Of a stretch of DNA of 59,268 bases, positions 5,763 through 59,268 are shown in pieces. The DNA comes from Bacteroidaceae bacterium (GTDB lineage Bacteria; Bacteroidota; Bacteroidia; Bacteroidales; Bacteroidaceae), in contig JAFZYE010000076.1 in assembly GCA_017616445.1 (NCBI GenBank), positions 1 to 59,268 of the forward strand, in the 5' to 3' direction. Each line of letters opens with the position of its first letter. Position 1 is the first letter of the stretch. The notes under the pieces are model-generated. The model was not told the DNA's origin and ran no database searches. It saw nothing but the letters and a program-made list of their open reading frames with translations. Position numbers and translations under genes: made by a program.

Positions 5763-5900
5763 TAGTTTAATAGGTTAATAGGGAAAGGAGACAAGAAGAC
5801 ATGAAGACAAGAAGACAAGACTATAGATTTCAGGCGTATTCCATCAGCAAAAGTAACGTCATGTATTCTAGTATTCCTGTATTCTCGTATTCTAAATTTT
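5763..5900. repeat. About 125-bp leader repeat, copy 2
   Basis: Same structure as 1904-2040, with an added AGTTTAATAGGTTAAT lead that copy 3 also has. It lies upstream of the thioredoxin-fold gene at 5959. Confidence 0.85.
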
Positions 5901-24103: not shown

Positions 24104-27028
24104 ATGAGAAGACATTCGCTATTTGTCATGTATAGCCTGTTGATTATGCTGTTTACTGCTCCCTTCCGTCTTTTCTCGCAGGAGGGAGGACTTCTCATTA
24201 ATGAGATACAGGTGGCGAATGTCGATATGTTCATCGACCCATCGTTCAATTACGGTGCATGGGTAGAGATCTACAATCCCACTTCCGATACGATTCCTCT
24301 GACCAATATGATGCTTCGGCATACCGATGCAGAGGGTACGATGAAGCTACAGCGGCTCACGGCCCTTCATGGTACGCTCTATCCGCAAGGCTATTGCTGC
24401 CTTTGGTTTGACCACAACAAGAAGGACGGCTACTATGGAAAGACAGCAGGTGAGCAGATCCCATTCAAACTCGATTTTGAGGGCGGAGTCGTTGAACTGG
24501 TGGATTCCCGGGGAAACATCCTCGATGCAGTGGCCTATCCGGCTGGCATCCCGCGCTGTTCGTTTGCCCGTCTTACCGATGGGGGCATTGATTGGAAGTG
24601 GACCTCTACGCCTACGCCTTCGCAGTCGAATGTTGGTAGTCTGTTTGCCGACAAACGCCTTGCTGCTCCTGTTACCGATACCAAGGGTGGGGTGTTCTCC
24701 GATTCTCTGATGTTTCAGGTATCCATCCCCTCTGGTACAATCTTACATTACACCACCGATGGTTCCACACCCATACCAGGGAAATCACATGTTTCCGTTA
24801 CAGGTCTCTTCTCCGTATCCGAGACATCCGTCTTTCGCTTCATGCTGACAGCTGAGTGCTATCTCAACAGTCCGGTTGTTTCCCGTTCCTTCATCCGCCG
24901 TAGTCGCGACTATTACCTCCCCATTGTGAGTGTGACCACTCATCCCGATCACTTCTTCGACGATTCCATCGGCCTGTATGTGGGAGGTGTGAATGGACGT
25001 GTCGACAACCATCAGTCGAAACCGATGAACCAGAATATGGATTGGGAGCGACCTGTGAATGTGGAGTACTTCGTTCCCGATACCCTCACAGGGATTTGGT
25101 ATGAGACCCTCAATCAGGAGGCCACCTTCTCCATCTTTGGTGGATGGACTCGTTTCAACGAAGGTGACAGCATCTTCCAATTCAAGCCATCCTTCAAGTT
25201 GAAAGCCGAGTCGATGTACGAGGGTCTGAACTACTATCCTTATCCTGTTTTCTCAGCCAAACCTTATATCAAGAATAAGACCCTCATGGTGCGAAACGGT
25301 GGTCAGGATCAGCATGGGCGCATCTGGGATGCTGTCATTCAGCACCTCATCCATACGAGTGGCATCTATCTCGATTGTCAGGCCACCCAACCTGCGCACA
25401 TCTTCCTCAACGTCCTCTATCTCGGTATGTTCAACCTGCGTGAGGCTAGCAACCGCAACTTCGCCTATAGCAACTACGGTATCTACAGCGATGAAGTTGA
25501 CCAGTGGGAGAATGAGTTCGAGGTCAAGGCAGGGACAGGCACCATCTATTCCACCTGGTACAGTGAGAGTCAGAAACTGGCTAACAATCCTACGAGTACT
25601 TCCCTTTGGGAATCCATCTGCAATATCGTCGATGTTGATGAGTATTGCAATTATATGGCCGCAGAGATTTACATGGGCAACCTCGACTGGTTGCGTGGCG
25701 GTTTCAAGAACATCAAGGGATTCCGATGCAATAAGGACGACGGCAAGATTCACGTTGTGCTCTTCGACCTCGACGGCTGCTTTGGCGATACCGACATGAT
25801 TGTAAAGGTGTTCTCTGAAGGAAAAGGCCGACAGGTGGAAATCTTCAAAAATATGTTGCAGTACAAGCCGTTCCGTCAGCAGTTCATCGATGCCTATTGC
25901 CTCATGGGTGGTAGTGTGTTCCTGCCCGAACGCTGTCTGCCCATCATCCGCAATATGGAAGCTGAGCGGACTGCTGCGTTGGAATGGGAGGGTAAAGAAC
26001 CTCACACCAAGGCCGATAAGCTCTGCGGCATCCTTTCCGATAGGGAAAAACAGCACCAACTGCGTATCAACAACCTGAAGAAGCAACTTCGGCTGAATGA
26101 TGAACTGCAGGTAGATATCGCAGCCTCCACACCCCTTGCTGGCATCCTGCTCAACGGACACGAGATACCTACATCCCGTTTCTCAGGTTCCCTCTTTGGA
26201 AAGACTGAACTGACCGCCGTCATACCTGCTGGTCATCAGTTCGTTGGCTGGCAGGTGGACGATGTGATGGTATCTGCCGATACCGTCCTCGACCTCCGTT
26301 CCCTTGAGTTAGGCTCCCGTTCTTCCGTTGTGGCATTATTCGAATCTTTCCCTCTCGGGGGAGTTGGAGGGGGGCTGCCCATCCGCATCAACGAAGTCTC
26401 TGCTGCTAACGATATCTACATCAGCGACTACCAGAAGAAGAGCGACTGGATAGAACTCTACAACACCACCGATTCCCTCATCGACCTCGCAGGCATGTAT
26501 CTGAGTGACAATCCTGCGAAACCTCAGAAGTATCAGATACCTGCAGACGGAAATACTCTCATCGCTCCCCATGGCTACCGTATTGTGTGGTGCGACAAAC
26601 GTGAACCCCTTGAGCAACTTCATGCCGGGTTCAAACTCGAGAATGCCGATAGCGCCTTTGTTAGCATCCAGGCCCTCGATGGTTCATGGACTGATAGCCT
26701 CCGCTATCAGGCACAAGGCCGTTGGCAATCTTTCGGACGATTCCCCGACGGAACCGACTGTGTGGCTTTGCTTGATCGCATCACCATAGACCAGCCCAAC
26801 CATATCCTCACCCAAACCCAGCTCATTCAGAACCTCTCCCCAACCCTCTCCCAAGGAGATGTGGTCAAATCCTCTCCCTTTGGGGGAGATAAGGGAGGGG
26901 TTATTATCCAATACTATAACCTCAACGGACAGCGTCTCAGCCATCCCGAAGATGCTCCTATTGTCATTCGCCGCATCATCTATAGCGACGGCACCACAGA
27001 AAGTAAGAAGATCATCCGCAAGCCTTGA
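24104..27028 (+). CDS. Secreted CotH-type protein with two lamin-tail domains
   Basis: 974 residues. Order: signal peptide (residues 1-25), lamin-tail domain (LINEIQVANVDMF, WVEIYNPTSDTIPL), chitobiase-like Fn3 domain (ILHYTTDGSTPIPG), CotH kinase-like domain (RNGGQDQHGRIWD, YLGMFNLREASNRNF, then VLFDLDGCFGD), a short beta region (STPLAGILLNGHEIP), second lamin-tail domain (IRINEVSAANDIYI, WIELYNTTDSLIDLAG), and a short C-terminal tail (YYNLNGQRLSHPEDA) like the terminal modules of other secreted proteins here. CotH proteins are atypical protein kinases; in Bacteroidota they are surface proteins of unclear target. Two GC-rich repeats lie in frame, one before the second lamin-tail domain and one before the tail. 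Repeat-encoded segments thus fall at domain boundaries. Confidence 0.88.
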   Translation: MRRHSLFVMYSLLIMLFTAPFRLFSQEGGLLINEIQVANVDMFIDPSFNYGAWVEIYNPTSDTIPLTNMMLRHTDAEGTMKLQRLTALHGTLYPQGYCCLWFDHNKKDGYYGKTAGEQIPFKLDFEGGVVELVDSRGNILDAVAYPAGIPRCSFARLTDGGIDWKWTSTPTPSQSNVGSLFADKRLAAPVTDTKGGVFSDSLMFQVSIPSGTILHYTTDGSTPIPGKSHVSVTGLFSVSETSVFRFMLTAECYLNSPVVSRSFIRRSRDYYLPIVSVTTHPDHFFDDSIGLYVGGVNGRVDNHQSKPMNQNMDWERPVNVEYFVPDTLTGIWYETLNQEATFSIFGGWTRFNEGDSIFQFKPSFKLKAESMYEGLNYYPYPVFSAKPYIKNKTLMVRNGGQDQHGRIWDAVIQHLIHTSGIYLDCQATQPAHIFLNVLYLGMFNLREASNRNFAYSNYGIYSDEVDQWENEFEVKAGTGTIYSTWYSESQKLANNPTSTSLWESICNIVDVDEYCNYMAAEIYMGNLDWLRGGFKNIKGFRCNKDDGKIHVVLFDLDGCFGDTDMIVKVFSEGKGRQVEIFKNMLQYKPFRQQFIDAYCLMGGSVFLPERCLPIIRNMEAERTAALEWEGKEPHTKADKLCGILSDREKQHQLRINNLKKQLRLNDELQVDIAASTPLAGILLNGHEIPTSRFSGSLFGKTELTAVIPAGHQFVGWQVDDVMVSADTVLDLRSLELGSRSSVVALFESFPLGGVGGGLPIRINEVSAANDIYISDYQKKSDWIELYNTTDSLIDLAGMYLSDNPAKPQKYQIPADGNTLIAPHGYRIVWCDKREPLEQLHAGFKLENADSAFVSIQALDGSWTDSLRYQAQGRWQSFGRFPDGTDCVALLDRITIDQPNHILTQTQLIQNLSPTLSQGDVVKSSPFGGDKGGVIIQYYNLNGQRLSHPEDAPIVIRRIIYSDGTTESKKIIRKP
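26348..26379. repeat. GC-rich palindromic repeat in the CotH gene (inter-domain)
   Basis: CCCTCTCGGGGGAG then GGAGGGGGGC, translated as FPLGGVGGGLP immediately before the second lamin-tail domain. Confidence 0.8.
26833..26901. repeat. GC-rich palindromic repeat in the CotH gene (before the tail)
   Basis: Starts AACCTCTCCC and ends GGGAGGGGTT; about 69 bp, 23 codons, translated as a segment running from LSPTLSQGD to FGGDKGGV. Two half-elements look fused. Confidence 0.8.
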
Positions 27029-27057
27029 TAAGACTGAAGAATCACAATGTCCAATAG

Positions 27058-27086
27058 TCTGACAAAATTATCGTGATTTTGTCAGA
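27058..27086. promoter_or_regulatory. Perfect 11-bp inverted repeat between the CotH gene and hsp20
   Basis: TCTGACAAAAT, 7-nt loop, ATTTTGTCAGA. It could be a terminator for the CotH gene (a T-rich stretch follows) or an operator for hsp20. It is not the CIRCE heat-shock element. Confidence 0.5.
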
Positions 27087-27221
27087 TTGTCATCATTTTT
27101 CCCCTTGGCACACCATTTTGCGTTATCCATTAATGAAAGCCGAAGTGAAAACAGAGGCAATCAAAAAAATATTATCAATTATAAATTATTAATTATAAAT
27201 TACAAACGGGAGGTATTAATT

Positions 27222-27647
27222 ATGTTACCAGTAATGTTTCAGAACAGTTGGTTTCCAACAGTATTTGACGATTTCATGAACACTGATTTTATGCCTCGTG
27301 CCAACAGTACAGCACCTGCAGTCAATGTGAAAGAGGACGAAAAAGCCTACACGATGGAACTTGCAGCTCCAGGAATCAAGAAAGAATTCTGTCGAGTCAG
27401 CATTAACGACGAAGGCAATCTGAGCATCGCCATTGAGAACAAGACAGAACATAAGGAAAGTGACCACAAGCACCACTACCTGCGTCGTGAGTTCTCATAT
27501 TCAAACTATGAGCAGGCCTATACGCTTCCAGACGATGTCATCAAAGACAAGATCTCTGCCAAAGTTGAGAATGGCATCCTGACCGTCGTCATGCCAAAAG
27601 CAACGAAGGAAGAAAAGAAAACCACAAAGAACATCACCGTCTCGTAA
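27222..27647 (+). CDS. Small heat shock protein, Hsp20/alpha-crystallin family
   Basis: 141 residues. A cytoplasmic ATP-independent holdase forming large oligomers. The alpha-crystallin domain runs from about residue 30 (APAVNVKEDEKAYTMELAAPGIKKEF) to GILTVVMPK, whose GILTV matches the conserved GxLxx motif; LRREFSYSNYEQAYTLPDDV is the central strand. The ATG at 27222 is preceded by GGGAGGT, one of the few clear Shine-Dalgarno-like sites in the window, fitting a strongly translated stress gene. The longer upstream frame (from 27087) is not conserved in character and is rejected. A hairpin terminator follows at 27671. Confidence 0.95.
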   Translation: MLPVMFQNSWFPTVFDDFMNTDFMPRANSTAPAVNVKEDEKAYTMELAAPGIKKEFCRVSINDEGNLSIAIENKTEHKESDHKHHYLRREFSYSNYEQAYTLPDDVIKDKISAKVENGILTVVMPKATKEEKKTTKNITVS

Positions 27648-27670
27648 CGAGTTGATGTCCTAACAAGCAA

Positions 27671-27697
27671 AGCCGTCCTTTTCAGGGCGGCTTTTTT
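27671..27697 (+). terminator. Hairpin terminator after hsp20
   Basis: AGCCGTCC / GGGCGGCT stem with loop TTTTCA, then TTTTTT. On the minus strand it has only a weak T-run. Confidence 0.85.
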
Positions 27698-27705
27698 AGG
27701 CTCGC

Positions 27706-28189
27706 CTGCATATTCCTGTGTCGAATTAAGCCTGAATTCGAAGTGTATGCAGGCTTGATACATTCTGTATGTAGGCTTAATACTCCTGCTTTTCGGATAC
27801 GAAAACAACGCCGTTGTTTTGCCATTTGCACGCCGTTGTTTTGACGAAACATCGGTGTAGTTTTGAGCTTCCTACGCCGTACCCTTTTTGCGCCCTCGTG
27901 AGGCTGCACGTGTTCCCTCGCGTGTCTGCACGTGTAGCCTCGCGTAGCTGCAAGTTTTCCCTCGCGTACCGTCTTCGTTGTTCTCGGGGGTTACAGGTGT
28001 TGCAATCCCTGATTACACGAGCTGTGTTCCTTGAATACAGATAGCGGATTCATTGATTACAAATCACAATCCGAGTCACGCCCGAGAGGTGTTTTTGTAA
28101 ACCTTAGGGTTTGCACTTGTTAACCCTAGGCCTTGCAATTGCTAACCTTAGGGTTCGCAAATCTAACCCCTTAGCCCTGCCTTCATCAT
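27706..28189. repeat. 22-bp-period degenerate array, about 22 units with changing word
   Basis: Cutting the DNA every 22 bp from 27706 lines up related words at every junction. Block 1 (27728-27772): GTATGCAGGCTTGATAC type. Block 2 (27816-27882): ACGCCGTTGTTTTG. Block 3 (27904-27970): TCGCGTGTCTGCACGTG. Block 4 (27992-28058): TTGATTACA. Block 5 (28102-28168): TTAACCTTAGGGTT with trailing TTGCA. Each block has about four units. Words are 9-17 bp, separated by 5-13 variable bases. The period is not a multiple of three and stops occur, so it is not coding. It is unlike CRISPR: there is no constant repeat. It fills most of the 27648-28497 gap. Confidence 0.85.
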
Positions 28190-28205
28190 CTCTTCATTTG
28201 CATTG

Positions 28206-28213
28206 CAAAGTTA
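28206..28213 (-). promoter_or_regulatory. Minus-strand -7 box TAACTTTG facing into the 22-bp array
   Basis: Minus-strand TATAACTTTGCAATG is a full consensus; a start about 7 bases further would put the 5' end within about 10-20 bp of the array edge. A -33 TTTG is not obvious. No protein gene lies downstream on that strand for over 1 kb. Confidence 0.55.
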
Positions 28214-28430
28214 TAAAAACACTTCATAGACGTTTGTCTGTAAGCGGACTTCAGTGATTAGGGATTGCACCATATATATAAGTGCAATCCCTGAATCCCT
28301 GTCCTCCATACGCATTTCAGAGGGGCAATAGCAAAAGTGACGAATTGACGGGTTATGTTTTATATACAAAAACACTGGTTCAAAGAACAAAAAGAGCTGA
28401 AAGTGTGGTGCTTTCAGCCTTTTTTTGCAA
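28214..28430 (+). ncRNA. Candidate non-coding transcript ending at an orphan terminator
   Basis: No open frame of note. It contains a perfect hairpin at 28260-28292 (AGGGATTGCAC / GTGCAATCCCT, loop of 11) and ends at a strong terminator with no gene to terminate. The 12-mer TGCAATCCCTGA at 28283-28294 is identical to 28001-28012 in the 22-bp array. The plus-strand promoter is not clear. Confidence 0.35.
28395..28427 (+). terminator. Orphan Rho-independent terminator
   Basis: Stem GCTGAAAG / CTTTCAGC with loop TGTGGTG, followed by CTTTTTTTGC. The closest upstream plus-strand gene is hsp20, which already has its own terminator. Confidence 0.8.
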
Positions 28431-28470
28431 TTATTAGTAAATAGTAAATGGTTAAATGGTAAATTATTAT

Positions 28471-28478
28471 TACTTTTG
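28471..28478 (+). promoter_or_regulatory. -7 box TACTTTTG for the acidic hypothetical gene
   Basis: TACTTTTGCAT, 20 bp before the ATG at 28498; excludes the longer frame from 28456. Confidence 0.75.
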
Positions 28479-28497
28479 CATACCTAATTGTGCAATT

Positions 28498-28944
28498 ATG
28501 ACCATCAGTAACGCTTCAACATCAAATCTCCGCTCGGCTATTGAGCAGGCTGTTCATCATTTCACTCAGGATGATGACTTCTTGGTTATCACCGATTTTC
28601 ATCTGCATCTCGATGCTGATACGGGTGAGGTGAGTATCGCAGACGATACAGATGTAGCAATTGCTTCAACTGTTGTCGAGGAATGGATTGACCTCGATGG
28701 CGATGATGAGGTTGAGGGAATGGCTGGCGTGCTGACAGCGTTACTTCAGCAAATGTCGAATGAACATGTGTTCGACAATGTGAATGTGTCCAAACCTTTC
28801 TCGTTTGTTCTTGAGGACGACAATCAGGAGTCGATTCAAGAGCTCTTCTATGTGGATGAGGACATCATCGTGCTCAACAACGATTTGCTGAAGGATATGG
28901 ATAAGGATCTCGATGATTTCTTCGAGAAACTAATGAAAGAGTAG
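28498..28944 (+). CDS. Small acidic protein of unknown function
   Basis: 148 residues, not recognised. Strongly acidic (DDD, DGDDEVEG, DKDLDDFFEK), no signal peptide, no membrane segment, no cysteine, so probably cytoplasmic. The first 25 residues look helical (SNLRSAIEQAVHHF), followed by short strands (FLVITDFHLHLDADTGEVSI) as in a compact alpha/beta fold. It is preceded by a good promoter and followed by repeat-filled DNA, so it is monocistronic. The middle pattern (LDADTGEVSIADD) is also seen in proteins with a beta-hairpin, but I draw no function from it. Confidence 0.75.
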   Translation: MTISNASTSNLRSAIEQAVHHFTQDDDFLVITDFHLHLDADTGEVSIADDTDVAIASTVVEEWIDLDGDDEVEGMAGVLTALLQQMSNEHVFDNVNVSKPFSFVLEDDNQESIQELFYVDEDIIVLNNDLLKDMDKDLDDFFEKLMKE

Positions 28945-28974
28945 ACTCTAGACTTCAATTTTTCAATTTTTTTT

Positions 28975-29053
28975 AGAAGTTAACGCTTCGCTAGGAGTTA
29001 TCGCTTCGCTGGAAGTTAACGGTCTTCGACCTAGAAGTTAACACTTCGTTAGA
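28975..29053. repeat. Tandem GAAGTTAACGCTTCGCTAG-type repeat, four units
   Basis: Units AGAAGTTAACGCTTCGCT, AGGAGTTATCGCTTCGCT, GGAAGTTAACGGTCTTCGAC(CT) and AGAAGTTAACACTTCGTT. A single unit occurs at 37630-37648. Flanked by TCTAGAC words at 28943 and 29127. Confidence 0.8.
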
Positions 29054-31924: not shown

Positions 31925-31982
31925 AAATAGACTCTAGACGCTAGACCTTAGACTTTAGACTCTAGACTTTAGACGCTAGCTC
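31925..31982. repeat. Longest TCTAGAC/TTTAGAC tandem word repeat
   Basis: Seven or eight consecutive 7-9 bp words (TAGACTC, TAGACGC, TAGACCT, TAGACTT) followed by CTTACCTCTAACTTCTTAC words, between def and the TPR gene. Confidence 0.85.
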
Positions 31983-32019
31983 TCTTACCTCTAACTTCTT
32001 ACTTCTTACCTCTTAATTC

Positions 32020-48992: not shown

Positions 48993-49001
48993 CAAAAAAG
49001 T

Positions 49002-49032
49002 TAGGAGTTAGGAGTTAGGAGTTAGGAGTTTT
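49002..49032. repeat. GTTAGGA tandem repeat
   Basis: Four heptamers GTTAGGA in a row, followed by TTAAACTA words. A shorter GTTAGGA run lies at 583-603. Confidence 0.9.
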
Positions 49033-58974: not shown

Positions 58975-59056
58975 CTCACTGGTAAAAACCTGTGTTTAGT
59001 TTAATGATAAAAAAGTCCTTCGGAGAAAAAGAGACAAAAATATCAAAAATACTTGC
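58975..59056. repeat. Inverted repeat arm of a MITE-like element (right copy)
   Basis: Matches the reverse complement of 773-853 over its length with scattered differences. Starts right after the ATPase stop codon. Confidence 0.75.
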
Positions 59057-59176
59057 CTGTGATGCATGCTCATCGAGCATCAGTCCGAAGTCATCGTTCC
59101 AAGTTCTGTCTAAGCGAGCTTAACAGCCCTTTGCCCGATACCTACGAACAGCCTACGGCCTCGCATCACAGTCAAG
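59052..59176. other. Variable stem-bounded insert in the right MITE-like element
   Basis: CTTGCCTGTGATGC (59052-59065) pairs with GCATCACAGTCAAG (59163-59176), 13 of 14 positions, enclosing about 97 nt with an ATGCTCATCGAGCAT hairpin and an AAGCGAGCTT hairpin. The left copy lacks this insert. No ORF. Confidence 0.55.
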
Positions 59177-59268
59177 ATAAAAACAGTGCAAATCGAATGC
59201 AGAAGTCAAACTTGTTTGAATTATGCTGAGATGCCGCCTGTTTTGCAGGAACTGAAAAATAAGAAAAA
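59177..59268. repeat. Long dispersed repeat, right copy, cut by the window end
   Basis: Same strand and nearly identical to 646-737; continues past the window. Confidence 0.9.

Follow-up and report, generated by a model that had tools for sequence, protein, structure and literature searches.

A 22-bp array with changing words in the intergenic DNA of a Bacteroidaceae bacterium, a possible lattice of protein-binding sites within dispersed repeats

Dispersed palindromic units standing in tandem between genes are known from the REP/BIME arrays that go with RAYT transposases, and plasmid iterons and the end-binding sites of Tn7 and Mu are short tandem series of sites, each about 22 bp long. In the order Bacteroidales, to which Porphyromonas gingivalis belongs, the nearest published element that we found for the array described here is BrickBuilt, an intergenic, dispersed element of that species with 19 copies in ATCC 33277 (PMC4596501). 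According to the parts of that paper used here, each element carries 1 to 22.8 tandem repeats of a 23-nt unit, with 0-6% indels, plus a leader and a tail, and direct repeats of 41, 23 and 22 nt had been reported earlier in strain W83. The parts used of a second paper deal with a class of heptanucleotide intergenic repeats, for which slippage has been proposed (PMC4679880).

The array and its locus

The array occupies positions 27706-28189 of a window that comprises the whole stretch of DNA analysed (59,268 bp, contig C38 of a draft genome of 2.38 Mb that is 69.97% complete). The initial annotation had presented it as non-coding, with a rigid 22-bp period and a word replaced by an unrelated one after about four units. 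Autocorrelation bears this out, since the self-match at lag 22 was 0.504 (z 12.5 against 500 dinucleotide shuffles) and that at lag 44 was 0.441 (z 9.6, same shuffles), while none of the remaining lags from 5 to 69 exceeded all 500 shuffles. Lag 66 (0.278, z 1.1) was among the latter, which is what a change of word about every four units would give. In 22-bp cuts, the unit starts that had been quoted were present at 27808, 27830, 27852 (as ATCGGT) and 27874, as were the TCG starts at 27896, 27918, 27940, 27962 and 27984, and the array resolved into a mosaic of five blocks, each of about four units with its own word.

On the forward strand, the cuts delimited block 1 (27720-27789, word GTATGCAGGCTTGATAC), common to loci L027, L029, L030, L034, L035 and L039 of the same genome; block 2 (27800-27892, CAAAACAACGCCGTTGTTTTG), common to L027, L028, L029 and L033; and block 4 (27998-28076, TGCAATCCCTGATTACA), common to L025, L026, L027 and L028. 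Block 3 (27893-27985, CCTCGCGNGNCTGCACGTG) and block 5 (28095-28173, TTGTTAACCCTAGGGTTTGCAA) rest on a TRF period of 22 and on two-unit patterns found elsewhere in the genome; TRF reported only these two most regular blocks, at 27893-27967 and 28095-28160. A non-periodic tail follows (28174-28337, forward strand), shared with L025 up to 28337 and with L030 up to 28318. It contains a palindrome, GGGATTGCACCATATATATAAGTGCAATCCC (about 28259-28289), also present in L030 and, in an altered form, in L025.

An alignment without indels over most of the region had also been described, and a single register over all blocks held only in part. The palindrome axes, measured by hand on the window sequence, lie near 27753, 27811, 27920.5, 28009 and 28105.5; blocks 2, 3 and 4 keep one common 22-bp register within 0.5 bp, but blocks 1 and 5 are off it (axis distances 58 and 96.5), and at only five of the nine block junctions considered in all was the axis displaced by a multiple of 11 to within 1 bp. 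In G024, another array-bearing genome of the family, the axis stayed on the lattice at all three block changes.

The array is flanked by two forward-strand genes. The upstream one (27222-27647, start codon placed by eye in ORF 27087-27647) encodes what we take from its sequence to be a small heat-shock (Hsp20-like) protein, and the downstream one (28498-28944, start placed by eye in ORF 28456-28944), to which no function was assigned, has relatives in 23 of 41 genomes, its own included. Relatives of the two genes adjoin each other in G003, G001 and G011, where the gap measures 123, 148 and 63 bp, respectively, and has no array, against 808 bp here. Since the alignment to G001 matches only 27625-27697 and 28368-28488, about 670 bases (27698-28367) are extra, a lineage-specific block lying between two terminator-like hairpins. 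A gain at this locus would be simpler than three losses at the orthologous sites of G001, G003 and G011.

Dispersal and distribution of 22-bp arrays

The occurrence of related arrays elsewhere in the genome had escaped the initial annotation. BLAST of 27700-28200 against its own genome gave 25 rows (the window itself included) with block sets differing between rows, which places it in a dispersed family of intergenic repeats. At the loci compared, whichever blocks occur follow one another in the order 1-2-3-4-5: in L030 and L034 block 5 comes after block 1, and in L036, L037, L038 and L041 the match is confined to block 3. The window also holds other dispersed repeats, at 307-477 (L038, 93%), 1612-1779 (L033, 87.5%) and 58976-59182 (L042, 86%). 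Among 61 genomes searched, the window array matched seven, namely its own and six of 16 relatives of the same genus, and none of the 44 outside the genus. RUG14251 (an uncultured Bacteroidales bacterium) was the sole named genome to match the two-unit pattern of block 3, in a search that may leave out records of the window's own genome.

Gaps with arrays were divergent in six of 26 cases, against 28% of intergenic bases, and convergent in eight of 26, against 14%, so that convergent gaps were somewhat over-represented. As the arrays are not concentrated in divergent gaps, we rejected the possibility that they are promoter-linked operators. No common neighbour gene was seen by eye at 12 array gaps. 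A plasmid or phage origin was likewise set aside, because 27700-28340 had no blastn match in the plasmid and phage collections; one exact two-unit word of G024 had no match in viral contigs.

To survey other genomes, reading frames of at least 90 codons were masked and lag-matched segments were counted in the remaining pieces at lags 5-79. The window's own genome (459 kb scanned) yielded 18 segments at lag 22, two of them really period-11 arrays, with 57 at lag 7, ten at lag 8, and others at multiples of these lags and at a few further lags. Within the 140 kb scanned of each, G006 had six segments at lag 22, three of which were period-11 arrays, and G011 had one, with eight at lag 7, four at lag 8 and few others. 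The period-11 arrays of G006 (L073 8736-8799, L075 2339-2508 and L076 8257-8304) did not test as palindromic. Lag 22 also appeared in G021, of another genus (320 kb; four segments, plus one at lag 44 and no other lag), G025 (320 kb; one segment, no other lag), G024 (160 kb; nine, with three at lag 7 and multiples) and G018 (160 kb; three, with one each at lags 21 and 18 and some at higher lags). As for other families of the order, G059 had one segment at lag 22, G060 none at that lag (nine at 7, and others), G044 none at that lag and G057 none at any lag scanned. G054 had two segments at lag 23, which are period-23 arrays (L113 8231-8298 and 9647-9751, word CTCACAAGTTTGTCAGTTTTTAC), 23 being the period of BrickBuilt. 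No segment was found in 100 kb of E. coli K-12, and ten shuffles each of the pieces of the window's own genome, G021 and G024 produced none at lag 22; the corresponding coding-sequence control gave four, zero and three.

The same 22-bp pitch thus occurs with unrelated words in G021, G024, G025, G018, G006, G059 and G182. The proposal that spacing is conserved without conserved sequence therefore not only stands but extends further: other genera of the family carry 22-bp intergenic arrays with unrelated words, a new observation. The words themselves are narrowly distributed. The G024 pattern gave any match in 24 of 151 genomes of the family, with zero or one match in each of the seven other genomes of genus g9 in that set (G075, G096, G114, G130, G144, G157 and G170), so that within the set the word is nearly exclusive to G024. 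Samples of the g9 relatives that are too small for a judgement (20 kb from G114, 0.6 kb from G075) showed no 22-bp array. In G182 there were ten matches to this pattern, with another word; the pitch was 22 in four of them and 44 in six. A different word marks the dispersed family of G021, which is of the same genus as G182, and hence words differ between species of one genus.

Constancy of the pitch and its possible explanations

Intergenic repeats of similar divergence were aligned with blastn scoring, counting as lattice those with the lattice in either copy. In the window's own genome, gap openings per substitution came to 4/310 in the 22-bp lattice against 75/585 in other intergenic repeats (p 2e-9), and in G021 to 21/710 against 298/2425 (p 1e-13), that is, about 10-fold and 4-fold lower, with the qualification that the compared pairs are not independent and that a lattice defined by periodicity selects somewhat against indels. 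In G024 the figures were 12/633 against 5/109 (p 0.16), and of three ways of counting only that by subject made the depletion significant (p 0.0037; the others gave p 0.2 and 0.16). Counting by subject copy gave a similar picture overall.

Patterns with free spacing pointed the same way. In the window's own genome, 17 of 18 rows with the two-unit pattern of block 3, and all four distinct places with that of block 5, were at pitch 22. G021 has a dispersed family at 11 places (20 rows), and in nine of its copies the array aligned without an internal gap. Across the whole of G024, there were 224 pairs of AAAC-N6-GTTT cores lying 1-30 bases apart; with distances of 15-44 allowed, 98 of the 100 pairs listed were at pitch 22, one at 23 and one at 44. 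The 8-nt spacers of 78 listed pairs comprised 69 distinct sequences, and core positions 6 and 9 changed together (of 156 cores, 86 have A-T and 50 have C-G there). These spacers were less self-complementary than column-shuffled ones (162/432 versus 202.7), with the core usually continued on one side only, as if each gap were directional.

The palindromic character of the units had escaped the initial annotation. Compared with column-permuted units, 15 of 27 arrays were palindromic at p<0.05 (combined p 1e-13, an optimistic value because the set includes several copies of the same block) and 12 were not. Two blocks of the window were not significant when tested alone (p 0.38 and 0.12), and none of five period-11 arrays reached p<0.05. 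Array units thus tend to be palindromic, and dyad symmetry is present in many arrays. This tendency is also new, as are the lower gap rate of the arrays, the prevalence of 22-bp spacing among the listed G024 pairs and the narrow distribution of the G024 word.

We give an even chance to the view that these arrays are helically phased lattices of putative dimer-binding sites, carried in dispersed and probably mobile repeats and subject to fast turnover of the word. Dyad-symmetric sites spaced at two helical turns (22 bp) would form the lattice, a dimeric DNA-binding protein would most likely occupy them side by side, neighbouring bound molecules would contact each other, and the lattice would travel inside repeats that insert between genes. 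A protein that reads dyads and contacts its neighbours would explain a constant pitch alongside changing words and spacers; exact pitch, free spacers and a dyad per unit are what cooperative binding of dimers on one helix face predicts. The phased protein array put forward at the outset gains indirect support from the dyads in many arrays, the indel depletion in two of three genomes and the varied spacers at pitch 22 in G024, with the protein and its binding being what we infer. Such a lattice may serve chromosome organisation, the insulation of transcripts or a mobile element.

The same repeats might instead be MITE-like, non-autonomous transposable elements with an internal minisatellite, as in BrickBuilt, the arrays being passive cargo and their pitch functionless. 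In both the window's own genome and G024, dispersed copies have part of their flanks in common. This, the right end common to nine G021 copies and the insertion-like difference from G001 at the window locus are all consistent with this idea, and part of it, mobility, belongs to the lattice reading too. We consider passive cargo unlikely, however, given that other intergenic repeats of comparable divergence contain more indels than the lattice and that G024 combines paired core changes with an exact pitch; nor were clear ends, inverted terminal repeats or duplicated target sites recognised. That palindromic units act as hairpins in RNA or DNA, singly or as one long stem, seems improbable. RNA folding was stronger than in shuffles in five of six pieces (z -5.25, -3.17, -6.73, -6.83 and -5.79; -1.64 in the sixth), but strong folding is automatic for tandem palindromes, many cores pass through the centre without a loop, and a hairpin does not require an exact linker length. 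In 18 arrays of G024, complementarity of the first and third spacers was 67/144 against 74.2 in shuffles (p 0.92), which does not support a long hairpin under selection. A known RNA was rejected, as 27000-29000 had no Rfam match at a family gathering score (ten weaker ones were found).

The initial annotation had offered as an alternative a copying process of fixed step. Slippage during replication, or a switch of template, with a favoured step and leaving arrays with no selected function, would fit a genome also rich in period-7 and period-8 arrays (in the window they have varied words, for example at 1904-1961, 5785-5820, 31928-31983 and 48999-49030). Yet those arrays gather gaps freely (87/675), unlike the 22-bp lattice (4/310), and slippage alone predicts spacers that are alike, contrary to the variety seen in G024. 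Copying may have given rise to the arrays, but alone it does not explain a pitch kept while letters change, and as the whole explanation we think it quite improbable.

If the lattice of bound dimers is real, this bacterial family has an unrecognised, fast-changing part of the chromosome. A wider and more tentative suggestion, which we think possible but would not presume, is that of a bacterial counterpart of rapidly evolving, satellite-like arrays, in which species-specific palindromic words would stand on an invariant 22-bp helical lattice at hundreds of intergenic sites, word and predicted binding protein changing together under a constant architecture. A helical pitch that stays fixed while the sequence changes is unusual for the intergenic DNA of bacteria. 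If it marks an occupied lattice, the 224 site pairs of G024 offer a bait with which the protein could readily be sought.

Comparison with known systems

In searches of an open-access collection (most subscription papers lie outside it), we recognised no account of palindrome lattices with word turnover. The difference from CRISPR noted initially is borne out: instead of near-identical repeats with unique spacers of about repeat length, the whole unit measures 22 bp, the word changes about every four units and the spacers of G024 have 8 nt. The difference from REP that had also been proposed is incomplete, as the arrays share with REP/BIME the dispersed, palindromic, intergenic units; they depart from it in having several words per genome and an exact 22-bp pitch. 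Y1_Tnp (RAYT) genes numbered one in the window's own genome, one in G011 and none in the array-bearing G024, G021, G006 and G018, and REP arrays driven by RAYT were set aside because of these four. By eye, the sole Y1_Tnp (RAYT-like) gene of the window's own genome (L043, about 1486-1942; G000:C65) has palindromes of the GCCCCAAAGGGGC type on both sides, which are a repeat family separate from the 22-bp arrays. Iterons and the Tn7 and Mu ends resemble the arrays in site length (about 22 bp) and tandem arrangement, and differ in that here there are many genomic copies. Whereas an initiator gene adjoins iterons, the neighbours in the window are the Hsp20-like gene and the gene of unassigned function, and no replication or transposition gene was recognised by eye beside the arrays in 12 gaps. 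The heptanucleotide repeats, as far as the parts used of PMC4679880 describe them, are also intergenic, tandem and of preferred period, but this period is 7, and the arrays of period 7 or 8 studied here gather indels.

The closest likeness is to BrickBuilt, which, in the parts of PMC4596501 used here, is intergenic, dispersed and tandem, with a leader, a tail and a unit of nearly equal length (23 nt). The repeats described here have a shared tail and shared flanks. The passages of PMC4596501 considered make no mention of palindromic units, and the arrays here are often palindromic; and while BrickBuilt has a period of 23 and one repeat family, the period here is 22.
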